From the NCBI RefSeq assembly GCF_021284765.1, contig NZ_CP089924.1:2560001-2624000 (forward strand): a stretch of 64,000 bases of DNA. Reading direction: 5' to 3'. Within the stretch, counting starts at the first letter, position 1; every line of letters begins with the position of its first letter. The notes below the pieces were generated by a model. The model worked only from the letters and a program-made list of their open reading frames with translations, searched no databases and had not been told where the DNA came from. This document shows positions 5,785 through 25,439 of the stretch, in pieces. A program made the position numbers and the translations under genes. This stretch comes from Lysobacter sp. 5GHs7-4. GTDB taxonomy: Bacteria; Pseudomonadota; Gammaproteobacteria; Xanthomonadales; Xanthomonadaceae.

Positions 5785-5788
5785 GGGA

Positions 5789-7162
5789 CTAGGGGGAAAC
5801 GGGTCGAGCGCAGGCGCGCGCCTGCGCCGCCTGCGCGGGCGTGCACACCTTCAGCAGGCGGCGCACGACCACGTCGCCGCGACCGTCACGCACGGTGAGG
5901 TCGTAACGCCCAGGCTTCAGATACAGGGGCAGATGACGTTCGGCCGCCGACAGCACCACGGTCTGGTCGGCCGGTACCGCGTCGTCGCTTTCCCGCACGT
6001 AGCGCGCTTGCAGCGCGCAGGGCAGGCGCGCCAGGCAAGGCTGCAGGTCGGCGGACAGATCGATCGGGTAGCGCTGTCCGCCCAGGCGCATCCAGTCGGG
6101 TCGGACGGTCGCGTCCGGCGTGTCGGGGAAGGCCATCGTGACGTCGTGGCGCTGCGGCCACAGCGCCCAGGCGCGCAGCGTGCCGCGCGCCACCAGCACG
6201 CTGGGCTGGGCCGGGCGGAATTCCGCCGCCAGACGGTCGGCGACCGATGGCGTCTCGCCCGGCGGCGCCGGCGACAGCAGCGCCTGATCCACGCTCAGCG
6301 GCTCGATGCCGCTCAGGCGCTGGAACTCCATCGCCATCGGCCGCGTGGTGGGCCCGAAACCGCCCGGCGCCTTGTCGATGTGGGCGTAACCGGCATGCAC
6401 CAGCAGCTTGGCGCGCGGGTTGGCGTGGAACACGCGCTCGATCAGATTCTGCGCCTGTCGGGTTTCGCGCTGTTGCTGGGTCTGGCCGGGAATGCCGACG
6501 GAGTCGTAAGGCACCAGCACGTAGCCCAGGCGCAGCGCGCTGCGGATGATTTCGGCGTAGATCGGATCGCCGCTGTAGTAACCGCTGCGCTGGTACAGCG
6601 GATAGCCGCGCCGCGTCAGCCCGGTGTCGGACGCATCCAGCGTTTCCAGCGCCAGGTGGGTGTAGCCCAATGCGCGCAGGCGCGGCAGCAGGGCCAGGGT
6701 CAGGCGACGGGTTTCGTTGCGGTGGTGCGCTTCGTTGATCATCACGGCGCGGCGGCCGGCGGCGCGCGCGACGATCCAGTCCGACGCGGGCACGGCGACG
6801 TCGTGTTGGCGGTTGGGCAGCACGAACGCGTCCGGCGTTTCCTCCCAGAACGGCATGCTGCGGTCGGCGTCGTTCGGGCGTCCGAAGAAGCCGTACTGGG
6901 TCGCCAGCATCTGTCCGACCTCGGCGGCCAGCGCTTCGTCGCCGCCGCTGTCGTAGCCGTAGGCCAGCAGGAAACGGCGGTACTCGTCGGGCTGGGCGTT
7001 GAACTGGCGGTAGAACTCGTCGATCGGATCCGGCGGCAGACCTTGCGCCTGCGCGAGGCCGGTGGCCGCGAGCAGCCAGGCCGCCAACAGGGCGAATACG
7101 CCTTTCAAGGACACGGGCGGCGTGGCGCGGATCGGCAGCGGCGACTTCATGTCAGGACTCAT
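5789..7162 (-). CDS. secreted ChaN/TraB/erythromycin-esterase-like protein, function unknown
   Basis: A 457-residue protein. Start chosen at the ATG complementary to 7160-7162, which overlaps the dehydrogenase stop (ATGA); an ATG four codons later is possible. Residues about 17-40 form a signal peptide ending in GLAQAQ. Motifs NEAHH (143-147), LETL (172-175), RETRQAQN (232-239) and LVHAGYAH (254-261) match the pattern of the ChaN/TraB/EreA group: an acidic-histidine motif, a Glu strand motif, an Arg-Glu helix and a terminal G-x-H. The reaction is unknown. A C-terminal domain of about 150 residues ending in a Cys pair (VCTPAQAAQARACA) has no obvious family. Confidence 0.7.
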   Translation of the reverse strand: MSPDMKSPLPIRATPPVSLKGVFALLAAWLLAATGLAQAQGLPPDPIDEFYRQFNAQPDEYRRFLLAYGYDSGGDEALAAEVGQMLATQYGFFGRPNDADRSMPFWEETPDAFVLPNRQHDVAVPASDWIVARAAGRRAVMINEAHHRNETRRLTLALLPRLRALGYTHLALETLDASDTGLTRRGYPLYQRSGYYSGDPIYAEIIRSALRLGYVLVPYDSVGIPGQTQQQRETRQAQNLIERVFHANPRAKLLVHAGYAHIDKAPGGFGPTTRPMAMEFQRLSGIEPLSVDQALLSPAPPGETPSVADRLAAEFRPAQPSVLVARGTLRAWALWPQRHDVTMAFPDTPDATVRPDWMRLGGQRYPIDLSADLQPCLARLPCALQARYVRESDDAVPADQTVVLSAAERHLPLYLKPGRYDLTVRDGRGDVVVRRLLKVCTPAQAAQARACARPVSP

Positions 7163-8586
7163 CCCAGGTGCAGGCCGACGTTCTTGGCCTCGGTGAAGAA
7201 ACGCATGGCTTCGATGCCGCCTTCGCGGCCCAGGCCGGAGGCGCCGACGCCGCCGAACGGCGTGCGCAGGTCGCGTTGCAGCCAGGTGTTGATCCAGACC
7301 ATGCCCACGCGCAACTGCGCGGCCAGGCGGTGGGCGCGGTTGAGGTCGCGCGTCCAGATCGAGGCCGACAGGCCGTAGTCGCCGGCGTTGGCCAGCGCCA
7401 GCGCGTGGCTGTCGTCGTCGAAGGGCTGCAGGGTCACGACCGGGCCGAAGATCTCCTCGCAGTTGCTCGCGCTGTCCGGGCCCAGGCCTTCGATCACGGT
7501 CGGCGCCACGTACCAGCCTTCGCGGTCCAAGGCCTGCCCGCCGCACAGGACCTGGCCGCCTTCCTCGCGGGCGCGCGCCAACGCACGCAGGACTTTGTCG
7601 TAATGCGCCTGCGACACCAGCGGGCCCAGGGTGGTGGTTTCGTCCGCGGGCGCGCCGGCGCGCAGCGCTTGCGCGCGCTCGACCATGGCCTGACGCACCT
7701 CGGCGTAGATCGGGCGCTCCACCAGCAGGCGCGAACCGCACAAGCAGATCTGCCCCGAGTTCTGGAACGCCGAGCGCACCAGGGTGTCGAGCTGCGCGCG
7801 CCAGTCGCTGTCGGCGAACACCAGGGTCGGGTTCTTGCCGCCCAGTTCCAGCGACACCTTCTTGAGTTTGGGCGCGGCCAGCGCGGCGATGCGCTGGCCG
7901 ACGACGGTGCTGCCGGTGAACGACACCGCGCGCACCGCGTCGTGGTTCACCAGCGGCTCGCCCACGTCCGGGCCCAGGCCGTGGACGATGTTGAGCACGC
8001 CCGGCGGAAAACCGATCTCGATCGCCAGCTCGCCCAGCATCGTCGCGGTGGCCGGCGTGATCTCCGACGGCTTGGCGACCACCGCGTTGCCGGCGGCCAG
8101 CGCGGGCGCGATCTTCCAGGTGAACAGGTACAGCGGCAGGTTCCACGGCGAGATCGTCGCGACCACGCCCAGCGGCGCGCGCAAGGTGTAGTTGAGCCCG
8201 GCCTGGCCGTGGTGGGATTCGCTGGCGAACTGGGTGGCGGCGTGGGCGAAGAAACGCAGGTTGGACACCGCGCGCGGGATCTCCGCCTCGCGCGCCAGCC
8301 GGATCGGCTTGCCGGCGTCTTCGGACTCGGCGCGTGCGAATGCGTCCAGGCGCGATTCCAGCGCGTCGGCCAACTTCTCCAGCCAGCGTGCGCGTTCGCT
8401 GTGGGGCAGGGCGGCCCAGGCCGGAAAAGCGCGGCGGGCGGCGGCGATGGCGGCCTCGACATCGGCGGCATCGCCGGCGGCGACTTTTGCATACGCCTGC
8501 GCATTGGCAGGGTCGTATACGTCTAGCCAACGGCCGCTGGCGGGGTCGCGGGACTGTCCGTCGATGCAGTGCCGGAAATATCGCAT
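7159..8586 (-). CDS. nbaE: 2-aminomuconate-6-semialdehyde dehydrogenase (aldehyde dehydrogenase family)
   Basis: NAD-dependent aldehyde dehydrogenase of 475 residues. N149 (SPWNLP), general base E247 (LELGGKNP) and catalytic C281 (GQICLCG) are present. The family includes 2-hydroxymuconic and 2-aminomuconic semialdehyde dehydrogenases; the position as first gene of a cluster with nbaC, nbaD and a RidA deaminase favours the aminomuconic substrate. It is the promoter-proximal gene of the minus-strand operon and faces the TldD locus across 306 bases. Confidence 0.9.
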   Translation of the reverse strand: MRYFRHCIDGQSRDPASGRWLDVYDPANAQAYAKVAAGDAADVEAAIAAARRAFPAWAALPHSERARWLEKLADALESRLDAFARAESEDAGKPIRLAREAEIPRAVSNLRFFAHAATQFASESHHGQAGLNYTLRAPLGVVATISPWNLPLYLFTWKIAPALAAGNAVVAKPSEITPATATMLGELAIEIGFPPGVLNIVHGLGPDVGEPLVNHDAVRAVSFTGSTVVGQRIAALAAPKLKKVSLELGGKNPTLVFADSDWRAQLDTLVRSAFQNSGQICLCGSRLLVERPIYAEVRQAMVERAQALRAGAPADETTTLGPLVSQAHYDKVLRALARAREEGGQVLCGGQALDREGWYVAPTVIEGLGPDSASNCEEIFGPVVTLQPFDDDSHALALANAGDYGLSASIWTRDLNRAHRLAAQLRVGMVWINTWLQRDLRTPFGGVGASGLGREGGIEAMRFFTEAKNVGLHLG

Positions 8587-8892: not shown

Positions 8893-10521
8893 GTGGACAG
8901 ACGCGATTTCCTGACGATGTCGGGCCTGGGCCTGGCCGGCCTCATGGTTCCCTACGGCAACCTCATCGCCGCCGAGGCCTTGCTCTCGCCGCTGGACGTG
9001 GCCAAGAAGAAGGCCTTGGCCGACGCCGCGCTGGGCGCGGCCACCGGTGCCGGCGCCTCGTATTGCGACGTGCGCATCGGCCGCTACCTGCGCCAGTTCG
9101 TGATCACGCGCGAGGACAAGGTCCAGAACGTGGTCAACACCGAATCCACCGGCATCGGCGTGCGCGTGCTGGTCAACGGCGCCTGGGGCTTCGCCGCCAC
9201 CAACCGCCTCACCAACGAAGGCGTGGTCCAGGCCGCCAAGCAGGCCGCCGCGATCGCGCGCGCCAACGCCAAGAGCCAGACCGCGCCGGTGCAGCTGGCC
9301 AAGGCGCCGGGCGTGGGCGAGGTGTCGTGGAAGACGCCGATCAAGAAGAACTCGATGGAAGTGCCGCTCAAGGACAAGGTCGATCTGCTGCTGGGCGTGA
9401 ACGCCGCGGCGATCAAGGCCGGCGCCGACTTCGTCAACTCGATGCTGTTCCTGGTCAACGAGCAGAAGTATTTCGCCTCCACCGACGGCTCCTACATCGA
9501 CCAGGACGTGCACCGCATCTGGGCGCCGATGACGGTGACCGCGATCGACAAGGCCAGCGGCAAGTTCCGCACCCGCGACGGCCTGTCCTCGCCGATGGGC
9601 ATGGGCTTCGAGTACCTCGACGGCGCCGCCTCGGGCAAGGTGGTCTCGCCCAACGGCGTAGTCAACTACAGCGATTCCTACGACATGCTCGAGGACGCGG
9701 TGGCCTCGGCCAAGCAGGCGCGGCAGAAGCTGACCGCGCCCTCGGTCAAGCCCGGCAAGTACGACCTGGTGCTGGACCCCTCGCACACCTGGCTGACCAT
9801 CCACGAATCGGTGGGCCACCCGCTGGAGTTGGACCGCGTGCTGGGCTACGAGGCCAACTACGCCGGCACCAGCTTCGCCACGCTGGATAAGCGCAACGAC
9901 AAGTTCCGCTACGGCAGCGACAACGTCACCCTGTTCGCCGACAAGACCCAGGTCGGCAGCCTGGGCGCGGTCGGCTACGACGACGAAGGCGTCAAGACCA
10001 AGCGCTGGAACCTGATCAAGGACGGCATCCTGGTCGACTACCAGACCATCCGCGATCAGGCCCACATCGTCGGCAAGACCGAGTCCGACGGCTGCTGCTA
10101 CGCCGACAGCTGGTCCAGCGTGCAATTCCAGCGCATGGCCAACGTTTCGCTGGCGCCGGGCAAGAACAAGCTCAGCGTCGCCGACATGATCAAGGACGTC
10201 GAGAACGGCATCTACATCATCGGCGACGGCTCGTTCTCGATCGACCAGCAGCGCTACAACGCCCAGTTCGGTGGCCAGCTGTTCTACGAGATCAAGAACG
10301 GCAAGATCACCGGCATGCTCGAGGACGTGGCCTACCAGATCCGCACGCCGGAGTTCTGGAACGCCTGCACCGCGGTCTGCGACGACAGCGATTACCGCCT
10401 CGGCGGCTCGTTCTTCGACGGCAAGGGCCAGCCGGGCCAGGTGTCGGCGGTCTCGCACGGCTCCAGCACGGCGCGCTTCAACGGCATCAACGTCATCAAC
10501 ACCGCCCGCAAGCTCGGCTGA
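8893..10521 (+). CDS. TldD-family metallopeptidase with Tat signal (paralogue 1)
   Basis: TldD-type zinc peptidase of 542 residues. The GTG at 8893 is chosen because it gives MDRRDFLTMSGLGLAGLMVP, aligned end to end with the paralogue at 11976, and GGCGGAAG lies just upstream. RRDFL plus a hydrophobic run is a twin-arginine signal, unusual since classical TldD is cytoplasmic. The zinc motif is HESVGH at 304-309, in the frame TIHESVGHPLELDR, and GYDDEGVKT follows about 80 residues later. TldD acts with TldE to process peptides such as microcin B17 precursor and CcdA; the substrate here is unknown. TldE follows after 20 bases. Confidence 0.9.
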   Translation: MDRRDFLTMSGLGLAGLMVPYGNLIAAEALLSPLDVAKKKALADAALGAATGAGASYCDVRIGRYLRQFVITREDKVQNVVNTESTGIGVRVLVNGAWGFAATNRLTNEGVVQAAKQAAAIARANAKSQTAPVQLAKAPGVGEVSWKTPIKKNSMEVPLKDKVDLLLGVNAAAIKAGADFVNSMLFLVNEQKYFASTDGSYIDQDVHRIWAPMTVTAIDKASGKFRTRDGLSSPMGMGFEYLDGAASGKVVSPNGVVNYSDSYDMLEDAVASAKQARQKLTAPSVKPGKYDLVLDPSHTWLTIHESVGHPLELDRVLGYEANYAGTSFATLDKRNDKFRYGSDNVTLFADKTQVGSLGAVGYDDEGVKTKRWNLIKDGILVDYQTIRDQAHIVGKTESDGCCYADSWSSVQFQRMANVSLAPGKNKLSVADMIKDVENGIYIIGDGSFSIDQQRYNAQFGGQLFYEIKNGKITGMLEDVAYQIRTPEFWNACTAVCDDSDYRLGGSFFDGKGQPGQVSAVSHGSSTARFNGINVINTARKLG

Positions 10522-10541
10522 GCGATCCAGGAGAATTCACC

Positions 10542-11876
10542 ATGAGTATGTTCAACGAAGCCGAAGCCCGGGCCCTGCTGGAGAAGGTCGTCAAGCTGTC
10601 CAAGGCCGACGAGTGCACCGCCACGCTGACCGGCTCGATCTCGGGCAACATCCGTTTCGCCCTCAACAACGTCTCCACCAGCGGCATCGTCGACGACGCC
10701 GACCTGGCGGTGCAGGTCGCGTTCGGCAACCGCGTCGGCGTGGCCACGATCAACGAGTTCGACGATGCGGCCCTGGAACGCGTGGTGCGCCGCGCCGAGG
10801 ACCTGGCCCGCCTGGCGCCGGAAAATCCCGAGTTCATGCCGGCGATCGACAAGCAGAACTACAAGGCCAGCGACACCTTCAGCGCCGCCACCGCCGCGAT
10901 CACGCCCGAGTACCGGGCCAAGGTCGCGTCCGACTCGATCGCGCCGTGCCGCGCCGACAAGCTGACCGCCGCCGGGTTCCTGGAGGACGGCCAGAGCTTC
11001 GTCGCCTTCGCCAACAGCAAGGGCAATTTCGGCTATCAGCGCGCGACCAACTTCAACTACACCTGCACCGTGCGCACCGATGACGGCCGCGGCTCGGGCT
11101 GGGTCGGCCGCAACCTGCAAAGCGCCGACGATTTCAAGGCCGACAGCGACGTGCGCACGGCGATGCGCAAGGCCACCGAATCGGCCGAGGCCAAGGCGCT
11201 GGAGCCGGGCAAGTACACGGTGATCCTGGAGCCGGCCGCGGCCGCGGGCCTGATCTCTTTCATGATGAACTTCTTCGACGCGCGCCAGGCCGACGAGGGC
11301 CGCAGCTTCTTGTCCAAGAAGGGCGGCGGCAACAAGCTGGGCGAGCAGGTCTACGACCCGCGCGTGAACATCGTCGCCGATCCCTGGGACGAGCGCGCCG
11401 CGGTCATGCCCTGGGACGGCGACGGCCTGCCGCGCGAGAAGATGGCGGTGGTCGAGAACGGCAAGATCGCCGCGCTGCGCTACTCGCGCTACTGGGCCAA
11501 GAAGCAGGGCAAGCGCGCGGTCGGCACGCCCGGCAACCTGCTGATGGCCGGCGGCGACAAGTCCACCGCCGAGCTGATCAAGGGCACGCAGAAGGGCATC
11601 CTGGTCACGCGCACCTGGTACATCCGCCTGGTCGATCCGCAGACCGTGCTGCTGACCGGCCTGACCCGCGACGGCACCTTCTACATCGAGAACGGCGTGA
11701 TCAAGCATCCGGTGAAGAATTTCCGCTTCAACGAATCGCCGGTGATCATGCTCAACAACATCGAGGAGCTGGGCAAGCCGGTGCGCGTGGCCGGCGACGA
11801 GTCCTCGTTCGTGATGATGATTCCGCCGATGAAGCTGCGCGATTTCACCTTCACCTCGCTGTCGGACGCGGTCTGA
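10542..11876 (+). CDS. TldE/PmbA-family protein
   Basis: A 444-residue partner subunit of the TldD/PmbA superfamily. It has the family layout but no HExxxH; the stretch corresponding to the metal site reads AAAAGLISFMMNFFDARQADEG, which lacks the zinc histidines, as is usual for TldE. An AGGAG-like site (CCAGGAGAATTCACC) precedes the ATG. No signal peptide is visible, in contrast to both TldD neighbours. It should form a heterodimer with one or both TldD proteins. It starts 20 bases after the first tldD and ends 99 bases before the second. Confidence 0.9.
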   Translation: MSMFNEAEARALLEKVVKLSKADECTATLTGSISGNIRFALNNVSTSGIVDDADLAVQVAFGNRVGVATINEFDDAALERVVRRAEDLARLAPENPEFMPAIDKQNYKASDTFSAATAAITPEYRAKVASDSIAPCRADKLTAAGFLEDGQSFVAFANSKGNFGYQRATNFNYTCTVRTDDGRGSGWVGRNLQSADDFKADSDVRTAMRKATESAEAKALEPGKYTVILEPAAAAGLISFMMNFFDARQADEGRSFLSKKGGGNKLGEQVYDPRVNIVADPWDERAAVMPWDGDGLPREKMAVVENGKIAALRYSRYWAKKQGKRAVGTPGNLLMAGGDKSTAELIKGTQKGILVTRTWYIRLVDPQTVLLTGLTRDGTFYIENGVIKHPVKNFRFNESPVIMLNNIEELGKPVRVAGDESSFVMMIPPMKLRDFTFTSLSDAV

Positions 11877-11975
11877 CGCCAGACGGCCAAGGCGGCGCCA
11901 CCGCTTGCCGGTGCGCCGCCCGCGCCGCGAAACACCCGCTACGACCGATCACCGCCACAGCCGAGTCCGCAAGCC

Positions 11976-13601
11976 GTGCAACGACGCGATTTTCTGAGTT
12001 TCACCGGCCTGGGCCTGGCCGGCCTCATGCTTCCCTACGGCCGCAGCATCGCCGCCGAGGCCCTGCTGGAACCGGTAGACACCGCGCGTCGCCGCGCTCT
12101 GGCCGATGCGGCCTTGAACGCGGCCCGCGAGGGCGGCGCCTCCTACTGCGACGTGCGTATCGGCCGTTATCTGCGCCAGTCGGTGATCACCCGCGAGGCG
12201 CAGGTACGCAACATCGTCAACGGCGAATCCGCCGGCGTCGGCATCCGCGTGCTCAGCGACGGCGCCTGGGGCTTCGCCGCCACCGCGCGCTCCACGCCCG
12301 ATGCGGTGGCCGCCGCCGCGCGTCAGGCGCTGGCGATCGCGCGCGCCAACGCCAAGGTGCTGACCCGCAAGGTCGAACTGGCGCCGGTGCAGGGCGTGGG
12401 CGAAGTGCGCTGGGCCACGCCGGTGCGCAAGAACGCGATGGCGGTGCCGATCAAGGACAAAGTCGAGCTGCTGCTGGGCGTGAACGCCGCGGCGATGAAG
12501 GCCGGTGCCGATTTCGTCAATTCCACCTTGTTCGTGATCAACGAACAAAAGTATTTCGCGTCCACCGACGGCAGCTACATCGATCAGGACGTGCACCGGA
12601 TCTGGCTGCCGCTGACCGCCACCGCGGTGGACAAGGCCAGCGGCAAGTTCCGCACCCGCGACGGCCTGTCGGCGCCGATGGGCATGGGCTACGAATACCT
12701 GGACGCCGATCCGGCCGGAAAGCACGCCTTGCCCGGCGGCATGACCGGCTACGGCAGTTCCTACGACGTGATGGAGGACGCGGTCGCGGCCGCCAAGCAC
12801 GCGCGCGCCAAGCTCAAGGCGCCCTCGGTCAAGCCCGGCAAGTACGACCTGGTGCTGGACCCGTCGAACATGTTTCTCACGATCCACGAGAACGTCGGCC
12901 ATCCGCTGGAACTGGACCGCGTGCTCGGCTACGAGGCCAACTACGCCGGCACCAGTTTCGCCACCCTGGACAAACGCGAACAGGGCTATCGCTACGGCAG
13001 CGAGGTGGTGAACTTCGTCGCCGACAAGACCCGCGCCGGCAGCCTGGGCGCGGTCGGCTACGACGACGAAGGCGTGAAGACGCGGCAGTGGGATCTGGTG
13101 CGCGACGGCATCCTGGTCGATTACCAGGCCACCCGCGACGAGGCCCTCATCCTCGGCCACAAGGAATCGCACGGTTGCAGCTATGCCGACAGCTGGTCCA
13201 GCGTGCAGTTCCAGCGCATGGCCAATGTCTCGCTGCTGCCGGGCAAGAAACCGCTGAGCGTGGCCGAGATGGTCAAGGGCGTGGAACGCGGCCTGTACGT
13301 GCACGGGCGCGGCTCGTATTCGATCGACCAGCAGCGCTACAACGCGCAGTTCGGCGGCCAGCTGTTCTTCGAGATCAAGAACGGCCAGGTCGTGGGCCTG
13401 GTCGAGGACGCGGCCTACCAGATCCGCACGCCGGAGTTCTGGAACGCCTGCGTGGCCGTCTGCGACCAGCGCGACTTCCGCCTCGGCGGTTCGTTCTTCG
13501 ACGGCAAGGGCCAGCCCAGCCAGGTGTCGGCGGTCTCGCACGGCTCCAGCACCGCGCGTTTCAACGGCGTGAACGTCATCAACACCGCGCGTTCGCTGTA
13601 G
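11976..13601 (+). CDS. TldD-family metallopeptidase with Tat signal (paralogue 2)
   Basis: A 541-residue TldD paralogue starting with GTG (MQRRDFLSFTGLGLAGLMLP). It is clearly homologous over its full length to the gene at 8893, with long identical blocks in the middle and at the C-terminus (GGSFFDGKGQPSQVSAVSHG). The twin-arginine motif is kept, and the zinc motif HENVGH falls at the same residue numbers, 304-309. The two probably arose by tandem duplication around tldE, with enough change to suggest distinct roles. The DUF4159 gene follows after 56 bases. Confidence 0.9.
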   Translation: MQRRDFLSFTGLGLAGLMLPYGRSIAAEALLEPVDTARRRALADAALNAAREGGASYCDVRIGRYLRQSVITREAQVRNIVNGESAGVGIRVLSDGAWGFAATARSTPDAVAAAARQALAIARANAKVLTRKVELAPVQGVGEVRWATPVRKNAMAVPIKDKVELLLGVNAAAMKAGADFVNSTLFVINEQKYFASTDGSYIDQDVHRIWLPLTATAVDKASGKFRTRDGLSAPMGMGYEYLDADPAGKHALPGGMTGYGSSYDVMEDAVAAAKHARAKLKAPSVKPGKYDLVLDPSNMFLTIHENVGHPLELDRVLGYEANYAGTSFATLDKREQGYRYGSEVVNFVADKTRAGSLGAVGYDDEGVKTRQWDLVRDGILVDYQATRDEALILGHKESHGCSYADSWSSVQFQRMANVSLLPGKKPLSVAEMVKGVERGLYVHGRGSYSIDQQRYNAQFGGQLFFEIKNGQVVGLVEDAAYQIRTPEFWNACVAVCDQRDFRLGGSFFDGKGQPSQVSAVSHGSSTARFNGVNVINTARSL

Positions 13602-13657
13602 GCCGTGCCGATGCGCGTCGCCGTCCCGCATGCCCCGGCGTTCCGACGCGCGGACGC

Positions 13658-14368
13658 ATGCGCATGAACCGCGCGCAGTTCCTGCGCCTGATGCTGGGCG
13701 GACTGGCCGGTGCGGCCTTGTCGCGGCCCTGGCAGGCGGCGTCGGCGGCGGCCGAGTACGACTTCTGGTTCACCCGCCTGAAGTACGACTCCGGCGACTG
13801 GGACGTGGACCAGCGCATGCCGGCCAACCTGATCACCTCGCTGATCGACTACACCAACCTGCGCGTGGACCCCAAGGAGCACGTGCTGGCGCTGGCCGAT
13901 CCGAAGATGCTGACCGCGCCGTTCTGCTACCTGGCCGGGCACAAGCTGGTCGAGTTCAATCCCGACGAGCGCCGCAACTTCGAGCGTTACGTGCGCAACG
14001 GCGGCTTCGTCTTCGTCGACGACTGCAACCACGACATCGACGGCCTGTTCGCGCGCTCCTTCGAATCGCAGATGGCGGCGATCTTCGGCCGCAAGGCGAT
14101 GAAGAAGCTGCCCAAGAACCATCCCCTCTACCGCAGCTTCTTCGTCTTCGACGGCCCGCCGGCGACCGGCTTCGAACTCAACGGCTGGGGCGACGACCTG
14201 GTCCACGAGTACCTGCAGGGCATCGAGATCGACGGCCGCCTGGGCGTGCTCTACAGCAACAAGGACTACGGCTGCGAGTGGGACTACGACTGGCGCAACA
14301 AGCGCTTCCTGGCCGAGGACAACACCAAGTTCGCGGTCAACATCGTCATGTACGCGCTGACCGCGTGA
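13658..14368 (+). CDS. DUF4159 domain protein with Tat-like leader
   Basis: A 236-residue protein beginning MRMNRAQFLRLMLGGLAGAAL; ATG at 13664 is an alternative start. The leader resembles a Tat signal with NR in place of RR (NRAQFLRLM, then a hydrophobic run ending near AASAAAEYDF). The mature part matches the DUF4159 pattern: an FTRLKYDSGDWDVD start, then an RNGGFVFVDDCNHD strand. In many genomes DUF4159 domains occur beside MoxR, DUF58 and BatA-like proteins, often as the C-terminal part of the membrane protein; here it is a separate exported protein. Function unknown. Confidence 0.82.
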   Translation: MRMNRAQFLRLMLGGLAGAALSRPWQAASAAAEYDFWFTRLKYDSGDWDVDQRMPANLITSLIDYTNLRVDPKEHVLALADPKMLTAPFCYLAGHKLVEFNPDERRNFERYVRNGGFVFVDDCNHDIDGLFARSFESQMAAIFGRKAMKKLPKNHPLYRSFFVFDGPPATGFELNGWGDDLVHEYLQGIEIDGRLGVLYSNKDYGCEWDYDWRNKRFLAEDNTKFAVNIVMYALTA

Positions 14369-14390
14369 ACGCATCCAGCAAGGGCACCCC

Positions 14391-15389
14391 ATGAGCCAGA
14401 CCCCCAGCGAATCCGACATCCAGGCCGAACTGGCCCAGCTGAGCACGCTGCGCAGCGCGATCGCGCAGGCCATCGTCGGCCAGGACGACGTGGTCGAGCA
14501 GTTGCTGATCGGCCTGCTGGCCGGCGGCCACTGCCTGCTCGAAGGCGTGCCCGGCCTGGGCAAGACCCTGCTGGTGCGCTCGCTGGGGCAGGCGCTGGAA
14601 CTGCAGTTCCGGCGCGTGCAGTTCACGCCCGACCTGATGCCCAGCGACATCCTCGGCACCGAGCTGCTGGAAGAGGATCACGGCACCGGTCATCGCCATT
14701 TCCGCTTCCAGCCCGGCCCGATCTTCACCAACCTGCTGCTGGCCGACGAGCTCAACCGCACGCCGCCCAAGACCCAGGCGGCGCTGCTGGAGGCGATGCA
14801 GGAACGCACGGTCAGCTACGCCGGCGTCACCCACACCCTGCCGTCGCCGTTCTTCGTGCTGGCCACGCAGAATCCTTTGGAACAGGCCGGCACCTATCCC
14901 TTGCCGGAGGCGCAGCTGGACCGCTTCCTGCTGCATATCCGCGTCGACTATCCGAGCGAGCGCGAGGAGCACGACATCCTGCAGCAGACCACCGGCGCGC
15001 ACAGCGCGCAGGTGCCGCGGGTGATGCACGGCGAGCAGGTGCTGGCCTTGCAGGCGCGCGTGCGCGAGGTCCATCTGGGCGACGATCTGCTGCTGTGGAT
15101 CACCCGCCTGGTGCGCGCCAGCCGGCCGCGCGACAGCGCCCTGGCCGAAGTGCGGCAATGGGTGAAGTGGGGCGCGGGCCCGCGTGCCGGTCAGTCGCTG
15201 GTGCTGGCGGCCAAGGCGCGCGCGCTGCTGCACGGCCGCTTGGCCGCGACGCGCGACGACGTGCTGGCGCTGGCGGCGCCGGTGATGCGTCACCGCCTGT
15301 TGCTGTCGTTCGCCGCGGAGGCCGAGCAGAAGAGCGCCGACGACGTGATCGCCGCGCTGGTGCGCGGCGTGCGGTTCGCCGGCGCCTGA
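14391..15389 (+). CDS. MoxR-family AAA+ ATPase
   Basis: A 332-residue AAA+ ATPase. Walker A is GVPGLGKT (52-59) and Walker B is LLLADE (115-120), followed by the MoxR signature LNRTPPKTQAALLEAMQE and a sensor region around LATQNPLEQAGTYPLPEAQ. MoxR proteins act as chaperone-like ATPases with von Willebrand A proteins to mature or insert cofactors into partner enzymes. Here the DUF58 protein encoded 25 bases downstream is the expected partner and the exported TldD/E or DUF4159 proteins are possible clients. Confidence 0.95.
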   Translation: MSQTPSESDIQAELAQLSTLRSAIAQAIVGQDDVVEQLLIGLLAGGHCLLEGVPGLGKTLLVRSLGQALELQFRRVQFTPDLMPSDILGTELLEEDHGTGHRHFRFQPGPIFTNLLLADELNRTPPKTQAALLEAMQERTVSYAGVTHTLPSPFFVLATQNPLEQAGTYPLPEAQLDRFLLHIRVDYPSEREEHDILQQTTGAHSAQVPRVMHGEQVLALQARVREVHLGDDLLLWITRLVRASRPRDSALAEVRQWVKWGAGPRAGQSLVLAAKARALLHGRLAATRDDVLALAAPVMRHRLLLSFAAEAEQKSADDVIAALVRGVRFAGA

Positions 15390-15414
15390 GCGCAGGGGCA
15401 GGGCGGCGATTGCG

Positions 15415-16311
15415 ATGAGCGGCGATCTGATCCCGGCGGCGGTGCGCGCGCGTCTGCGCAACCTGCGCCTGACCTCGCGGCGCGCGGTCGGCGCGCACGG
15501 GCTGGGCCTGCACCGCAGCCGCAGCCGCGGCGCCGGGTTGGAGTTCGCCCAGTACCGCGCCTACGAGCCCGGCGACGAACTGCGCCAGATCGATTGGAAG
15601 CTGTACGCGCGCTCGGACCGCTTCTTCGTGCGCGAGGCCGAACGCGAGAGTCCGCTGGCGGTGTGGCTGCTGCTGGACGCCAGCGCCTCGATGAACCAGG
15701 CCGATGCGGCGCGGCCGGGTTGGAGCCGCTTGGATGCGGCCAAGGCCCTGGTCGCCTGCGTGGCCGAGCTGGCCCTGCGCCAGGGCGATCGCTTCGGCCT
15801 GATCGCGTTGCGCGACGACGGCCTGCGCCTGCTCGCGCCGGCCAGCGGCCCGCGTCAACGCGACCGTCTGCTGCTGGAGCTGCAGGCGCTGTCGGCGCGC
15901 GGTAGCTGGCCCGGCAGCGAGCAATTGCGGCCGCTGTGGGAACGCATCCGCGCCGACGACCTGGTGCTGATGCTGGGCGACGGATTCGACGAGAGCGGCA
16001 TCGCCGTGGCCGAACGTCTGGCCGCGGCGCGGCGCGAGGTGCTGAGCCTGCGCATTCTCACCGCCGAAGAGCGCGACTTCCCGTATCAGGGCGGGCATCG
16101 TTTCCGCGATGCTGAAACCGGCGAAGAGCTGCTGGGCGACGGCGTCGCGCTGCGCGCCGAGTTCCTGGCCCGCTTCGCCGCGGCGCGCGCGCAGATCGAC
16201 GCGCGCCTGGACGCCTGCGGCATCCGCCACGCCGAATACGTGCTGGACCAGGAACTGGACCTGCCGCTGCGGCGCTTGTTCGGCGCCCGCGACGCCGCGG
16301 AGTACGCGTGA
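15415..16311 (+). CDS. DUF58 domain protein (von Willebrand A-like)
   Basis: A 298-residue protein with the DUF58 signature around residues 43-75 (FAQYRAYEPGDELRQIDWKLYARS) and a MIDAS-like DASAS at 88-92, so it has a vWA-like fold that could bind a metal. Proteins of this group pair with MoxR ATPases. No membrane segment is evident. Its stop overlaps the GTG start of the BatA-like gene by 4 bases, so the two are translationally coupled. Confidence 0.93.
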   Translation: MSGDLIPAAVRARLRNLRLTSRRAVGAHGLGLHRSRSRGAGLEFAQYRAYEPGDELRQIDWKLYARSDRFFVREAERESPLAVWLLLDASASMNQADAARPGWSRLDAAKALVACVAELALRQGDRFGLIALRDDGLRLLAPASGPRQRDRLLLELQALSARGSWPGSEQLRPLWERIRADDLVLMLGDGFDESGIAVAERLAAARREVLSLRILTAEERDFPYQGGHRFRDAETGEELLGDGVALRAEFLARFAAARAQIDARLDACGIRHAEYVLDQELDLPLRRLFGARDAAEYA

Positions 16312-17462
16312 ATTTCGCCCTGCTGCTGCCTGCCGCGCTGGCCGCGCTGACGGCCTTGCTGCTGCCGCTGCTGATCCATCTGGCGCGACGCAGCGAGCAG
16401 CGCCCGACCGACTTCGCCGCGTTGCGCTGGCTGCGCCAGAAGCCGCGCCCGCGCCATCGCATCCGCTTCGACGAGCGCTGGTTGCTGCTGCTGCGTCTGC
16501 TGTTGCTGGCCTTGTTGGCGCTATGGCTGGCGCGGCCGGCGATGTACGGCGGCGCCACCGTGCGGCCCTGGGTGGCGGTCGCGCCGGGTATCGATCCTCG
16601 GGCCCTGGACCTGCCCGCTGATGCGCGCGTGCGTTGGCTGGCGCCGGGCAGTCCGAGCATCGATACGCCGATGCCTGCGCGCGCGCAGCCGCTGGCCAGC
16701 CTGCTGCGCGAACTCGACGCGACTCTGCCGGCCGATGTGCCGCTGCAGGTGGTCGTGCCGGCGCAGTTGTCGGGCGCGGACGGCGAACGCCCGCGGCTGT
16801 CGCGGAAGGTCGAATGGCGCGTGGTGGCGGGTTCGAACGCAGCCGCATCGGTCGCCGCCGCGCAAGCGCCGGTCAAGGCCGCGATCCGCTATGCGCCCGA
16901 CCACGCGGCCGCCTTGCCGTATCTGCGCGCGGCCATCGCATCCTGGTCGCCGCAAGGCACCGCGGTGGACGCCGCCGTCGCAACCGCGGCCGCGCCCAGC
17001 GATCCCAAGGTCCGCAATCTGCTATGGCTCGCGCCCGGACCGCTGCCCGCACCCGTGCTGGAGTGGGCGGGCGCGGGCGGCACGCTGGTGCTGGCGGCCG
17101 ACACGCAGGCGCCTTCCCTGGCGTCCAGCCTGCCGCTGTGGCGCGACGGCGAGGGCCGGGTGCTGGCGGAAGGCGGGCGCTACCGCGAGGGCCGCGTGCT
17201 GCGTTTCACCCGCGCGCTCACGCCGCAGAGCCTGCCGCTGCTACTGGAACCGGAGTTTCCGCGCGGCCTGCGCGCTTTGCTGAGCGCACCCGTCGCGGCG
17301 CCGACGCTGACTTCGGCCGGCGATTACGCGCCGCGCCACGGCGGCCCGACTTACGACACGCCCGCGCGCGATCTCAAGCCCTGGCTGGCGCTGTTGATCG
17401 GCGCCTTGTTCGTGCTGGAGCGCTGGCTCGCCTGCCGTCCGCGTCGCGGTGGTGCGCCATGA
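16308..17462 (+). CDS. BatA-domain membrane protein
   Basis: A 384-residue protein starting at GTG (GTGA overlap with the DUF58 stop). It opens with the BatA/aerotolerance N-terminal layout: a membrane segment at about 3-22, the basic loop HLARRSEQRPTDFAALRWLRQ, and a second membrane segment near 57-76. A long Ala-rich periplasmic-type region follows and a last hydrophobic segment lies near residues 360-376 (WLALLIGALFVLERWLA). The stop overlaps the next gene as ATGA. It likely anchors the MoxR/DUF58 module in the inner membrane. Confidence 0.88.
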   Translation: MNFALLLPAALAALTALLLPLLIHLARRSEQRPTDFAALRWLRQKPRPRHRIRFDERWLLLLRLLLLALLALWLARPAMYGGATVRPWVAVAPGIDPRALDLPADARVRWLAPGSPSIDTPMPARAQPLASLLRELDATLPADVPLQVVVPAQLSGADGERPRLSRKVEWRVVAGSNAAASVAAAQAPVKAAIRYAPDHAAALPYLRAAIASWSPQGTAVDAAVATAAAPSDPKVRNLLWLAPGPLPAPVLEWAGAGGTLVLAADTQAPSLASSLPLWRDGEGRVLAEGGRYREGRVLRFTRALTPQSLPLLLEPEFPRGLRALLSAPVAAPTLTSAGDYAPRHGGPTYDTPARDLKPWLALLIGALFVLERWLACRPRRGGAP

Positions 17463-19645
17463 GCGCGGCGCAACGGCTGCAACGGCTGTTGCATGCGGCG
17501 CGCTGGCGAAGTGCGGCCGATGCGCTGCTCATCGGCGCGCCCTGGGTGTTGCTCGCTGCCTGCCTGGCGTGGCGGTGGAGCGGGGTGGGCACCGCGATTG
17601 CGGTGGCGGTGCTGGCGGCGGCCATCGTCGCGGCCATAGCCTGGCGCGTGTCGCTGCGCCTGGACACGGCCTGGCTGGTGCGCCGGCTCAATGCGCACCG
17701 CGCCGACATGGACGACAGCGCGGATCTGTTGTTCGCCGATGGCGCCAAGCTGGGTGCGCTGCAGAGCCTGCAGCGCGCCCGTCTGCAACGGCGCATCGAG
17801 GACGGTGCCACGCCCGACTTGCGCCCGGCCTGGTCGCTGCGACGCCTGGCTTGGTCCGGTTCGCTGGCGGTGCTGGCATTGTTGGCGATAGGCCTGTGGC
17901 CGCGCCCCAACGACCTGCCGCTGCACGAGCGGCTCGCCGATGCGGTCGGCCTGTCGCCGGCGCCCACGCAGACCCGTTTGAGCGACGCCGCGCTCGCGAT
18001 CGCTCCGCCTGCCTACACGCGCCTGCCTGCGCGCGAACAAGACCAGCTCGAAGCCAAGACCGTGCAGGGCGCGCGCCTGCGCTGGCGTTTGCGCTTCCAG
18101 CCGCAGCCGAACTCGGTCGAGCTGGTCTTTCACGACGGTCGCCGCGTGCCGCTGACGCGCGCAGGCGAGGACTGGTCGGCCAGCGCGGTGCTGGAAAAGT
18201 CCACGCTCTACCGCATCGTGCTGGATGCCAAAGCGCTGCCTTTGCAGCCGCGCCGTTTGTACCGAGTAGACCTTGCGCCCGACCGTGCACCGCAGCTGGG
18301 CGTGATCGAGCCCGACCGCGGCCTGAGCCTGCTCACCCCGGGCCAGCGCGTATGGCCGCTGGCCTTCGACGCCAGCGACGACTACGGCCTGGCCGCCAAT
18401 GCGATCTTGCGCATCACCCTGGCCCAGGGCTCGGGCGAAAACATCACCTTCCGCGAGCAGCGCATCAGCCTGCGCGGCAACGGCGGCGCCACCGCCAAGC
18501 GCTACGCGCACCGACTGGACCTGGCCGCGCTGGGCTTCGCGGTCGGCGACGACCTGATCGTACAGCTCAGCGTCGACGACAACCGCGCCCCGCAACCGCA
18601 AACCACGCGCAGCCCCAGCCTGATCCTGCGCTGGCCCGCCGATCTGGGCCAGGAGGCGACCGGCCTCGAGGGCCTGGTCAAGACCACGTTGCCCGCGTAC
18701 TTCCGCAGCCAGCGTCAGATCATCATCGACGCCGAAGCCTTGTACGCACAGCGCCGCAAACTCGCGGCCGCGACCTACGAGCAGCGCTCGGACGGGATCG
18801 GCGTGGACCAGCGCATCCTGCGCCTGCGCTACGGCCAGTTCCTGGGCGAGGAGTCCGAGGGCGAGCCCAAGCCGCCGCCGACCAACGACGCCGAAGACGT
18901 CGCCCACGCGGACGGCGAACACGACGATCATGCGCCGGCCGCGGCGGACGCCGACGCGCACGACGACCACGATCACGCGCCGGCGCAGACGCCCTCGCGC
19001 TTCGGCGATGCCGGCTCGTTGCTGGAGGAGTACGGCCACACCCACGACCACGCCGAAGCGGCGACGCTGCTGGATCCGGAAACCCGCAAGCTGCTCAAGG
19101 CCGCGCTGGACGAGATGTGGCAGTCGGAACTGCACCTGCGCCAGGCCCATCCCGAGCAGGCGCTGCCTTACGCCTATCGCGCCTTGCGCTACATCAAGCA
19201 GGTCCAGCAGGCCAGCCGCATCTACCTGGCGCGGGTCGGGCCGGAACTGCCGCCGATCGACGAGACCCGGCGCATGAGCGGCGAGCGCGAAGGCCTGGCG
19301 CGGCGCGCCGATGCGCTCAGCGCGACGGTCGCCACCGATACGCCTCTGGAAGCCTTGTGGGGCGCGCTGGAAACGGCGCCGGGCGCGCAGGGCGCGGGCA
19401 TCGACACCGCCGCCTTGGAGCGCTGGCTGAGCGAACACGAGTCGCGCGTGGCCGATCCGCTGGCGTTCGTGGCCGCGATCGACGCGCTGCGCGAACGGCC
19501 CGATTGCGTGCCGTGCCGGGCGCGCCTGCGCGGCCTGCTGTGGCCGCTGCTCAAGCGTCCGCCGGCGGCCTTGCCGCGACGCGAGGACGGCGGTGAGGAA
19601 GGTCGGCGTTATCTGGATGCCTTGCGGCGGGAGTCGGCGCCATGA
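17459..19645 (+). CDS. large membrane protein, DUF4175-like, with His/Asp-rich segment
   Basis: A 728-residue protein; the ATG at 17459 overlaps the previous stop by 4 bases. Three hydrophobic segments lie in the first 160 residues (about 23-40, 45-62 and 137-153), then a long soluble region. The layout fits the DUF4175-type membrane proteins found in MoxR/DUF58/BatA operons. A striking acidic and histidine-rich stretch lies at about 18886-19065, with GEHDDHAPAA, HDDHDHAP and GHTHDHAEA, which looks like a metal-binding linker. The C-terminus has a Cys pair, RPDCVPCRAR. Function unknown; the stop overlaps the next start as ATGA. Confidence 0.75.
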   Translation: MSAAQRLQRLLHAARWRSAADALLIGAPWVLLAACLAWRWSGVGTAIAVAVLAAAIVAAIAWRVSLRLDTAWLVRRLNAHRADMDDSADLLFADGAKLGALQSLQRARLQRRIEDGATPDLRPAWSLRRLAWSGSLAVLALLAIGLWPRPNDLPLHERLADAVGLSPAPTQTRLSDAALAIAPPAYTRLPAREQDQLEAKTVQGARLRWRLRFQPQPNSVELVFHDGRRVPLTRAGEDWSASAVLEKSTLYRIVLDAKALPLQPRRLYRVDLAPDRAPQLGVIEPDRGLSLLTPGQRVWPLAFDASDDYGLAANAILRITLAQGSGENITFREQRISLRGNGGATAKRYAHRLDLAALGFAVGDDLIVQLSVDDNRAPQPQTTRSPSLILRWPADLGQEATGLEGLVKTTLPAYFRSQRQIIIDAEALYAQRRKLAAATYEQRSDGIGVDQRILRLRYGQFLGEESEGEPKPPPTNDAEDVAHADGEHDDHAPAAADADAHDDHDHAPAQTPSRFGDAGSLLEEYGHTHDHAEAATLLDPETRKLLKAALDEMWQSELHLRQAHPEQALPYAYRALRYIKQVQQASRIYLARVGPELPPIDETRRMSGEREGLARRADALSATVATDTPLEALWGALETAPGAQGAGIDTAALERWLSEHESRVADPLAFVAAIDALRERPDCVPCRARLRGLLWPLLKRPPAALPRREDGGEEGRRYLDALRRESAP

Positions 19646-21510
19646 ACCCCGCGTACGCCACGCCCGAATTCGCGCTGGCCGCACTGCTCGCTCTGGCCGT
19701 GCTGCTGGCCTGGGCCGGCCTGATCCTGCGGCAGTCGCGCACGCCCAGGCACGAGCGCGCGCGCAGCTGGCGCCTGCTGTTGCTGCTGGCCGCGCAGCCC
19801 GTCGCCGCCGCGCTGCTGTACCTGACCCTGCTGCCGCCGACCTTGCCGGGCGAGGCGGGCACGATGCTAGTGGCGACGGCCGGCGCGCGCGATGTCGGCG
19901 ACAAAGCCGCCGGCGAGGTGCGGGTGATCCTGCCGGAAGCGCCGAATGACGCAGCGGGCGAACGCGTGCCCGATCTGGCCACCGCCTTGCGCCGCCACCC
20001 AGGCACGCGGCGCTTGCGCGTGATCGGCGCCGGTCTGGAAGCGCGCGATGCGGACGCCGCCCGCAGCCTGACGATCGAGTTCCAAGCCGCGCCCTTGCCG
20101 CGCGGACTCAGCGGCCTGTGGCTGCCGCGCCGCGTCGCGGCCGGCGACGATTTCTTGGTCCACGCGCAGGCGAGCGGACTGGACGGCGGCAGTGCGGAAT
20201 TGTTGGATCCGGCGGGACAGCGCGTCGATCGCGCTGCGCTGGATGCGGACGGCGCGTTCGCCCTGAGCGGCACCGCACGCGGCGCGGGGTTAAGCAACTT
20301 CACCCTGCGTCTGTTTGACGCGCAGCGCAAAACGGTGCAGGACATCGATCTGCCGCTGCAGACCACGGACGAACCCGCGCCGCGCATCCTGATCCTGGCC
20401 GGCGCGCCCAGCCCCGAACTCAAATACCTGCGCCGCTGGGCCGTGGACAGCGGCGCGCGGCTGCAGACCCAGATCAGCGTCGGCGGCGGCCTGCAGCTGG
20501 GCGACGCGCCCATCGCTCTCAATGCCGCCAGCCTGGGCGGTTACGATCTGGCGGTGCTGGACGAGCGCAGCTGGGACGGCCTGGGCGCGGCGCAACGCGC
20601 GTCGCTGATCGAAGCGGTGCGCGGCGGCCTGGGTCTGATCCTGCGCACTACCGGACCCTTGTCCGACGGCACGCGCGCGCAGTGGCGGTCGCTGGGCTTG
20701 AACGTCGACGCCGGCCGCGATGCCGCCAACGCCAAGCTGGCGCTGGACGGCGGCGCCGACGAGGACGCGATCCGCGCGCGCATCGGCCCGGGCAGCGCCG
20801 ATGCGCCGCGCGTGCGCGACGAGGCCGTGCCCGAGACGCCGGTACTGAGCCGGCGGGTGCTGCGCCTGGAATCGCCGCAGGTGCAAACCCTGCTGCGCGA
20901 CAGCAACGGCGTCGCGCTAGCGGTCTGGCGCGAGCAAGGGCGCGGCCGGGTCGCGCTGTGGACGCTGACCGACAGCTTCCGTCTGGCCCTGGGCGGCCGC
21001 GGCGATCTGCATGCGCGGATCTGGAACGATGCGCTGGCCGCGGTCGCGCGCGCGCAGCCCGGCGATGCGCCTCAGATCGACAGCGACGCGCGTCCGCACC
21101 AGCGCATGAGCCTGTGCGGGCTGAGCGCCGGTGCGCGCGTGACCGCACCCGACGGTCGCGAGCTGCCCTTGCTGATCGATCCGGCCAGCGGCGCGCGCCG
21201 TTGCGCGGGCTATTGGCCGCGTCTGCCGGGTTGGCACCGCCTGCGGCAGGGCGAGCGCGTATGGCCGTTTGCGGTGCGCCGCAGCGACGAAGCGCCGGGG
21301 CTGCACGCCAGCGCCTTGCGCGAGCGCACGCTGACGCTGGCCGCGCAACCGGCGTCGCCGTCGACTCTGGTCGCCGCCGATCCTAACCCCCGGCGCGGCC
21401 CGTCCTGGCCCTGGTTCCTGGCCTGGCTGTCGTTCGCTGCGGCGCTATGGTGGTTCGAACGCTCGCGCCTGGGGCGCGCCGTGCCGATTGCGGCGGAAAC
21501 GACGGGCTGA
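19642..21510 (+). CDS. putative membrane protein with periplasmic domain, end of MoxR/BatA operon
   Basis: A 622-residue protein. Two N-terminal membrane segments (about 11-28 and 43-65) and a C-terminal one near 590-605 (WPWFLAWLSFAAALWWFE) flank a large periplasmic-type region. The region around residue 240 (PRILILAGAPSPELKYLRRW) and GGLGLILRTTG resemble the glutamine-amidotransferase-like fold that follows the vWA/BatA part in related operons. I cannot name the family with certainty. It overlaps the previous gene by 4 bases and ends the plus-strand operon. Confidence 0.72.
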   Translation: MNPAYATPEFALAALLALAVLLAWAGLILRQSRTPRHERARSWRLLLLLAAQPVAAALLYLTLLPPTLPGEAGTMLVATAGARDVGDKAAGEVRVILPEAPNDAAGERVPDLATALRRHPGTRRLRVIGAGLEARDADAARSLTIEFQAAPLPRGLSGLWLPRRVAAGDDFLVHAQASGLDGGSAELLDPAGQRVDRAALDADGAFALSGTARGAGLSNFTLRLFDAQRKTVQDIDLPLQTTDEPAPRILILAGAPSPELKYLRRWAVDSGARLQTQISVGGGLQLGDAPIALNAASLGGYDLAVLDERSWDGLGAAQRASLIEAVRGGLGLILRTTGPLSDGTRAQWRSLGLNVDAGRDAANAKLALDGGADEDAIRARIGPGSADAPRVRDEAVPETPVLSRRVLRLESPQVQTLLRDSNGVALAVWREQGRGRVALWTLTDSFRLALGGRGDLHARIWNDALAAVARAQPGDAPQIDSDARPHQRMSLCGLSAGARVTAPDGRELPLLIDPASGARRCAGYWPRLPGWHRLRQGERVWPFAVRRSDEAPGLHASALRERTLTLAAQPASPSTLVAADPNPRRGPSWPWFLAWLSFAAALWWFERSRLGRAVPIAAETTG

Positions 21511-21530: not shown

Positions 21531-21590
21531 TCAGATCGACCGCACTCAGATCGACTGCACTCAGATTGACTGCACTCAGATTGACTGCAT
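21531..21590. repeat. four tandem 15-bp repeats covering the SDR stop codon
   Basis: Four nearly identical 15-base units start at 21531, 21546, 21561 and 21576 (consensus TCAGATYGACYGCAC). The last unit encodes, on the minus strand, the final residues and TGA stop of the SDR gene; the other three repeat that end beyond the stop, each with an in-frame TGA. This looks like slippage expansion of the gene end. Confidence 0.9.
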
Positions 21591-22361
21591 GCGTCCGCCG
21601 TCCACCGCCAGGCTCACGCCGTTGACGTAGGCGGCGGCGGGCGAGGCGAGGAAGGCGATGCTGGCGGCGATCTCCGCCGGCTGCGCGAAGCGGCCGACCG
21701 GCACGGTCTTGCGCATGCCTTCGACGATCGCCTCTTCCGATTGCCCGGACGTCCGCGCGCGATCGCCGATGATCTGCGCGATGCGGCCGGTCTCGGTGTA
21801 GCCGGGCAGCACGTTGTTGACGGTGATGCCGAACGGCGCCAGTTCGCGCGACAAGGTCTTGGCCCAGCTGGCGACCGCGCCGCGGATGGTGTTGGACACG
21901 CCCAGGCCGACGATGGGTTCCTTCACCGACGTCGAGATCACGTTGACGATGCGGCCCCAGCGCGCCGACTGCATGCCCGCCAGCACCGCCGCCACCAGGG
22001 TCTGGTTGGCGACCAGGTGACGTTGGAAGGCGTCCAGGTAGGCGTCGATCTGCGCGCTGTGGGCGGCGCCGCCGGGCGGACCGCCGGTGTTGTTGATCAG
22101 GATGTGCACGGGACGGCCGGCGGCCAGCGCCTCGACCTGCGCGCGCAGGCCGGCGCTGTCGGACACGTCGGCGGCGATCCAGCCGTGCTGCTGCGCCCCG
22201 CGCACGGGCAACGCCGCGACCACGGCCTGCAGCGCGTCGGGCCGGCGCGCCAGCACGGTCACGTCGGCGCCCAGCAAGGCCAATTCGTGCGCGGCGGCGC
22301 GGCCGATGCCGTCGGAACCGCCGCAGACCAGGGCGTGCTTGCCGGTGAGATCGAGGTCCAT
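21576..22361 (-). CDS. SDR family oxidoreductase, atypical active site
   Basis: A 261-residue Rossmann-fold short-chain dehydrogenase. The nucleotide motif is CGGSDGIGRA near residue 15 and the strand motif reads NNTGGPPGG in place of NNAG. The usual catalytic YxxxK is absent: the aligned region reads GLGVSNTIRGAVASWAKTL, with no Tyr at the expected place. This fits a divergent SDR subgroup with the NNTGGPP signature; the reaction is unknown. The C-terminus (YVNGVSLAVDGGRMQSI) is normal. It lies 37 bases after the PaiB-like gene on the same strand. Confidence 0.88.
   Translation of the reverse strand: MDLDLTGKHALVCGGSDGIGRAAAHELALLGADVTVLARRPDALQAVVAALPVRGAQQHGWIAADVSDSAGLRAQVEALAAGRPVHILINNTGGPPGGAAHSAQIDAYLDAFQRHLVANQTLVAAVLAGMQSARWGRIVNVISTSVKEPIVGLGVSNTIRGAVASWAKTLSRELAPFGITVNNVLPGYTETGRIAQIIGDRARTSGQSEEAIVEGMRKTVPVGRFAQPAEIAASIAFLASPAAAYVNGVSLAVDGGRMQSI

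Positions 22362-24038: not shown

Positions 24039-25439
<1,401 letters not shown>

Follow-up and report, generated by a model that had tools for sequence, protein, structure and literature searches.

TldD/E of the Escherichia coli type is a cytoplasmic peptidase. Both subunits are required for activity, the metal of TldD is held by the two His of HExxxH and by Cys454, recombinant TldD is purified with about one metal per monomer, and the enzyme cleaves the leader from the modified precursor of microcin B17; the work on it as a peptide trimmer makes no mention of a signal peptide or of the periplasm (PMC5810440). MoxR and DUF58 proteins occur with a BatA-type double anchor in Bat (Bacteroides aerotolerance) operons (PMC5700661), for a MoxR/VWA pair, NorQ/NorD, metal insertion into the target has been proposed (PMC13036017), and mutants in RL3499–RL3502 (cmdA–cmdD) show envelope and shape or morphology defects (PMC3893208, PMC5700661). 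Here we analyse a locus of Lysobacter sp. 5GHs7-4, at 8893..21510 of a 64-kb window (the whole stretch of DNA analysed, C1:2560001-2624000 of a 4.71-Mb genome), in which TldD and TldE genes stand next to a MoxR–DUF58 membrane module.

The linkage of the TldD/TldE half to the membrane half is strongly supported. From motifs and alignments, this fixed set of neighbouring genes seems in many proteobacteria to send TldD, whose relatives are known inside the cell, to the envelope, along with an ATP-driven membrane machine. These TldDs are a wide clade, predicted to be exported, with an altered residue at a metal-ligand position. MoxR–DUF58 membrane operons have envelope phenotypes and no known job, and here one branch is connected with a named enzyme and with a candidate partner for metal binding, a biochemical handle on the family. 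We found no literature account of an exported TldD or of a TldD–MoxR–DUF58 linkage, in a search whose broader queries were judged on titles and abstract openings of the top matches and whose scope mostly excluded subscription papers.

Linkage of TldD/TldE to a membrane module

The locus consists of nine open reading frames (ORFs), all on the + strand, with successive gaps of 20, 99, 56, 22, 25, −4, −4 and −4 bases, which agrees with the single direction and the short gaps or 4-base overlaps described in a first-pass annotation of the bare sequence. The order is TldD1, TldE, TldD2, DUF4159, MoxR, DUF58, BatA-type double anchor, p8 and p9. The genes and their features are as follows (aa, amino acids; Tat, twin-arginine translocation; MIDAS, metal-ion-dependent adhesion site).

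8893..10521, +: TldD1, 542 aa; GTG start, VDRRDFL twin-arginine leader, HESVGH metal motif, Asp509 at the E. coli TldD Cys454 position
8893..8976, +: predicted Tat leader of TldD1; RRDFL, hydrophobic stretch, A-A-E-A; 3′ boundary set by eye
10417..10419, +: Asp509 codon of TldD1 (FFDGKGQP), aligned with the Cys metal ligand
10542..11876, +: TldE, 444 aa; no HExxxH, no leader, no in-frame upstream start
11976..13601, +: TldD2, 541 aa; GTG start, VQRRDFL leader, HENVGH, Asp509
13500..13502, +: Asp509 codon of TldD2, by alignment
13658..14368, +: stand-alone DUF4159 protein, 236 aa; its N-terminal leader has no twin arginine
14391..15389, +: MoxR AAA+ ATPase, 332 aa, by Pfam
15415..16311, +: DUF58/VWA protein, 298 aa, by Pfam; DASAS stretch of the MIDAS motif
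16308..17462, +: BatA N-terminal double-anchor protein, 384 aa; by positive-inside reading, the middle part probably lies in the periplasm
17459..19645, +: p8 membrane protein, 728 aa; predicted beta-sandwich domains, His/Asp-rich loop
18854..19051, +: p8 His/Asp-rich loop and EYGHTHDH motif, residues 466–531
19642..21510, +: p9 membrane protein, 622 aa; its profile matches that of the fourth protein in fused-type loci (below)
20374..21054, +: class I glutamine-amidotransferase/ThuA-like domain of p9 by fold match, residues 245–471, without cysteine

Pfam matches cover the TldDs and TldE, MoxR (AAA_3), DUF58, the BatA N-terminus and, at 183 bits, the DUF4159 protein. The domains PmbA_TldD_1st, 2nd and 3rd score above the Pfam cut-offs in TldD1, TldE and TldD2 alike, which places all three in the TldD/PmbA superfamily; HExxxH is present in TldD and absent from TldE. 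Unlike these seven genes, p8 and p9 have no Pfam support, and the earlier label of the eighth gene as DUF4175-like found none in Pfam or NCBIfam. Elsewhere in the genome PF01523 has two further matches, one of them a canonical TldD and the other, judging from where it lies, probably the matching TldE; the set in the window is therefore an addition and not the housekeeping pair. The closest database TldDs to those of the window come from Lysobacter.

We checked the order of TldE, DUF4159, MoxR, DUF58, BatA, p8 and p9, ignoring TldD positions, in 80 named loci (the best 80 of 574 relatives, fetched with TldD1 and mostly close relatives) and in 20 distant loci drawn from searches of 121 genomes of the order and 398 Pseudomonadota genomes. 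All seven genes stand in order on one strand in 69/69 untruncated named loci, which are of the Lysobacteraceae type, and the remaining 11 of the 80 run off their contig. The distant set, from several orders and at least two classes, holds two truncated loci (L148 and L154) and one without the module (L147); its 17 untruncated loci with an Asp-type TldD (defined below) are all complete at E 1e-3, and a divergent BatA or p9 is lost from four of them at E 1e-10. Identity in p9 falls to 22–29% in nine distant loci with the gene order still intact. The same order, which the first-pass annotation had proposed looking for in other genomes, is thus kept in every untruncated named and Asp-type distant locus, and the arrangement is not due to chance. 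Relative to TldE, the TldD frames of the 80 named loci lie two before it (58 loci), one before it (12) or one on each side (9), and one locus has no TldE; with two TldD genes in 68 of the 80, the second TldD is optional and mobile.

Close relatives of TldD1 (E at most 1e-58, a threshold that could miss more divergent Asp-type TldDs) are found in 14 of the 398 Pseudomonadota genomes, 13 of which carry the Asp type; in the 14th (G564) the TldD is 44% identical and of Cys type, and neither a leader nor a module accompanies it. The DUF4159 domain (PF13709) occurs in 106 of the 398. Short DUF4159 frames of 229–299 aa are present in 12 genomes, which together with G000 (a 236-aa gene inside a longer frame) are the 13 Asp-type genomes, and in the remaining 93 the domain sits within open frames of 578–1253 aa. 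When the 398 genomes were searched with the p8 alignment, strong matches appeared in exactly the same 13. In each of these, Asp-type TldD, stand-alone DUF4159 and p8 lie on one contig within ~10 kb, and the two halves that had first been read as joined in one genome are therefore linked across species. Names among the 120 proteins listed include Kordiimonas (an alphaproteobacterium), Colwellia, Thalassotalea, Alteromonas and Aliikangiella, and in the window's own family 14 of the 19 genomes listed have a match, the window's genome counted.

Single loci show further layouts. In L141 (G745) a second TldD at 5355-6986 lies on the opposite strand at the module's far end, beside p9. L144 and L157 each have two TldE copies, which in L144 are paired with one TldD apiece. 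Several gaps between module genes of L152 (G282) hold apparent copies of a dispersed repeat, recognized by recurring similar translations, with the order intact.

Leaders and metal site of TldD

The window's TldDs share with E. coli TldD/E (PDB 5nj5) the TldD domains, HExxxH followed by Glu/Asp and a TldE partner without the motif, the E. coli-type row of our alignment being the canonical TldD of the window's own genome. They differ in the twin-arginine leader, in Asp for Cys454, in an additional Cys492, in the fixed membrane module and in the frequent presence of two TldD genes. The closest large group, the CGKGEP-type TldDs (23 rows from 274 Gammaproteobacteria), is 29–37% identical and has in common HESxGHPLELDRxLG and the GH that follows the third ligand; it differs by Cys at the metal position and by falling on a separate side of the tree. 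The provisional label 'archaeal-type' for this group derives from NF040952, the NCBIfam family that the TldDs of the window match best; TldD1 scores 122 bits against it, with a cut-off of 635. In several Gammaproteobacteria, CGKGEP-type TldDs (L088-L110) coexist with the canonical E. coli type.

Each of the two TldDs of the window opens with V-x-RRDFL and carries HExxGH, and each has a twin arginine, a hydrophobic stretch and a cleavage-like site, as judged by motif and by eye. The motif RR-x-[F/V]-[L/I/M/V] is found near the start of 174 of 175 TldD frames (101 sequences); the sole frame without it is that of L147, which is of Cys type and unlinked to the module. In two lists of database TldDs the motif lies within the first 35 residues in 224/240, and the other 16, without RR, have N-termini that resemble internal starts as judged from the protein sequence, an apparent misannotation that the GTG start of the window's TldDs may explain. 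With TatC encoded in the genome, export of TldD via Tat is strongly predicted. The two RRDFL leaders read in the first pass (VDRRDFL and VQRRDFL) were thus borne out, and the export proposed from them stands as a prediction by motif.

The motif is found within 40 residues of the homologous start in 0/101 TldE frames. No start codon lies upstream of that start in 83 of the 101. In the other 18 the frame could begin 18–731 residues earlier; the added stretches are mostly Arg-rich, and in 8 of them a twin-arginine string stands near the far end. As TldE has no leader, it probably crosses with TldD. The DUF4159 protein of the window begins MRMNRAQFL, which looks exported and has a single R in the motif (NRAQFL); of the Tat-like leader first claimed for it, the exported appearance stands and the twin arginine does not. 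Among its relatives, with starts as chosen, RR is present in the first 14 residues in 40/94 and a single R in most others, and the N-terminus is leader-like in 90 of 94 frames by the rule used. Large parts of BatA, p8 and p9 are predicted by a positive-inside reading to face the periplasm, and the structures predicted for p8 and p9 show helices of membrane length where expected.

The residue at the place of the third ligand sets these TldDs apart. Asp509, in FFDGKG[Q/E]P, is present in 62 of the 63 rows of the module-type alignment, the exception (L147) having Cys; the third-ligand Cys is retained as CGK in two canonical, three CGKGEP-type and the L147 TldDs. Among 252 TldD frames collected from loci that overlap, 206 have Asp, 31 have Cys and 15 are unreadable or unrelated, and all 173 twin-arginine frames with a readable metal motif have Asp. 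From the alignment we infer that Asp509 would act as a metal ligand. Cys492 goes with Asp509, again in 62 of 63 rows with L147 as the exception, and none of the remaining Cys-type rows in the alignment has Cys there. Cys496 was considered as a substitute metal ligand and ruled out, Ala or Gly standing there in 17 of the 63 rows.

The Asp form of TldD is one clade. In a first maximum-likelihood tree of 66 chosen rows, from which a motif filter omitted L147, L144, L156, L157 and L159, 37 Asp rows lie on one side of a branch with support 100/99. A second tree of 59 rows, with these five loci restored and the rows of eight others out (five with near-copies and three long branches), groups 32 Asp rows at 100/99 and places L147 as their sister at 99/96, a placement that carries the program's long-branch warning. 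The TldD of L147 (G564:C6:4050000-4069999; 12709-14169, −) is 42–44% identical, has a TldE and retains the Cys-type site. The known sister thus keeps Cys and lacks both leader and module, and in the clade the leader, Asp and the module appear together.

p8 and the MoxR–DUF58 core

The His/Asp-rich loop of p8, probably periplasmic, contains at least 4 His in 85/85 readable frames, a count that omits L141 and L142 (His-containing loops by eye), L154 (truncated) and L085 (in two pieces). As a fraction of residues, His makes up 0.096 of the loop, 0.013 of p8 outside it and 0.004–0.023 of the five neighbouring proteins measured; these figures are descriptive and no blind test, the loop having been picked after it was noticed. 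An HxH[D/G] motif follows the loop in nine p8 proteins of 26–33% identity. The simplest reading of this composition is a periplasmic metal-binding role. By alignment, p8 also has a nearly invariant Cys pair at residues 683/686 and p9 an invariant pair at 492/521; these are possibly disulphides or a CxxC metal site.

For comparison we took 20 loci, from 18 families, out of the 93 genomes with long DUF4159 frames; in this second type parts of the membrane module are fused. MoxR–DUF58 is followed by a large frame of 792–1118 aa in all 20, and then by a frame of 679–785 aa in 19 and of 417 aa in L199; some of these frames, L199 and L206 for example, may be wrongly chosen. Profile comparison aligns BatA with the N-terminus of the large fused protein (95.7%, 81 columns), DUF4159 with its C-terminus (95.3%) and p9 with the next protein (hhalign probability 97.1, 367 columns), and finds no counterpart of p8 (at most 6.9%). 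Our custom DUF4159 profile matched 1/20 fused loci at E 1e-3, Pfam matched all, and profile–profile comparison recovered the domain. In a MoxR tree, 27 linked and 20 fused rows separate at 100/100. The genome of L147 holds one such fused-type locus elsewhere (L203).

The gene content of these loci presumably matches that of the RL3499–RL3502 operon of Rhizobium leguminosarum, and we take them to be of that broad MoxR–DUF58 type. Judged by profiles on the fused-type loci, RL3499–RL3502 shares with the window adjacent MoxR and DUF58, the BatA N-terminus, DUF4159 and a p9-like fourth gene, and differs in that BatA and DUF4159 are fused there and are two separate genes in the window. The linked system is this core with separate BatA and DUF4159, plus TldD, TldE and p8. 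Bat operons are likewise similar in MoxR, DUF58 and the BatA-type double anchor, and differ in that the window's BatA-like protein has no VWA domain in Pfam searches up to E 0.1. NorQ/NorD resembles it as a MoxR with a VWA partner; DUF58 replaces NorD here, and there is no nitric oxide reductase among the nine genes.

Function of the linked genes

Most likely, a periplasmic TldD/E has been added to an envelope machine. We give about even chances to the nine genes working as a single unit, in which a periplasmic metallopeptidase of the TldD/E type is coupled to a machine of the inner membrane driven by MoxR/DUF58. TldD would fold in the cytoplasm with the leaderless TldE, and the heterodimer would cross via Tat on the leader of TldD, with TldE hitch-hiking. 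In the envelope, as has been suggested for the E. coli enzyme, a closed shell would take up unfolded peptides and trim them from the N-terminus, with a His-His-Asp metal site (a substitution seen by alignment, with a putative ligand role) in place of His-His-Cys. p8 might bind metal by its His-rich loop and dock or charge the peptidase; BatA, p9 and DUF4159 would be a scaffold, remodelled from the cytoplasm by MoxR/DUF58; and the unit might serve envelope quality control or peptide turnover. The first-pass idea of an exported zinc peptidase system matured by MoxR/DUF58 and tied to membrane proteins is, as a whole, partly supported; zinc is no more than a candidate metal, since the site departs from that of E. 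coli TldD in its third ligand.

Several observations weigh against such a unit. TldD, TldE and p8 profiles have no match within 20 kb in any of the 20 fused-type loci, and as the core exists without TldD nearby, the physical tie between peptidase and machine is drawn from linkage. By the rule used, the leader of DUF4159 is absent or weak in 4/94 frames, clearly so in L144 and perhaps by start choice in L062, L068 and L085. G461 has a weak partial p8 match (E 1.2e-8) without this TldD. Cys492 could be a ligand or a disulphide partner.

MoxR/DUF58 might instead act in the cytoplasm as a chaperone for metal insertion or assembly, maturing TldD/E ahead of its export by Tat, with only an accessory part for the membrane proteins. 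Tat carries folded, cofactor-loaded proteins, which counts for this view, as does the strict linkage; we know of no MoxR requirement of E. coli TldD, and the related core without TldD nearby in all 20 fused-type loci argues that the core is not only for maturing TldD. With metal insertion proposed for NorQ/NorD (PMC13036017) on one side, and recombinant E. coli TldD already holding its metal (PMC5810440) on the other, we consider the chaperone possible, if doubtful. A bolder form of the single unit is an ATP-powered periplasmic protease, in which the MoxR ring would act via DUF58, BatA, p8 and p9 to feed or gate the Tat-exported TldD/E shell, its Cys-to-Asp site rebuilt for the oxidising periplasm and supplied by the p8 loop. 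This is unlikely; if true, energy would cross the membrane and drive protein turnover where ATP is absent.

That TldD/E cuts the leader from the microcin B17 precursor (PMC5810440) suggests a role as a maturation enzyme, either for the module itself (the tails of DUF4159, BatA or p9) or for one dedicated envelope peptide with leader removal of the same kind. Against this, no conserved extra gene stands out around 27 loci: among 841 flanking ORFs (at least 60 aa, within 4.5 kb) one cluster reached the cut-off of 4 loci, being present in four and by eye a LysR-type regulator, and the first-pass remark that no candidate substrate gene is in sight holds for ORFs of this size. We regard this role as distinctly unlikely. 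Most of the named loci are close relatives, as would suit a passive operon in which two unrelated functions are inherited together, a reading we find highly improbable and reject on the co-occurrence over 398 genomes: the 13 genomes span at least two classes and hardly share flanks, and the order is unchanged in the nine loci of low p9 identity.

In the window itself, the genes flanking the locus, all on the − strand, we take by eye to be an aldehyde dehydrogenase (7159-8586), a short-chain dehydrogenase (21576-22361) and an asparaginyl-tRNA synthetase (24039-25439).

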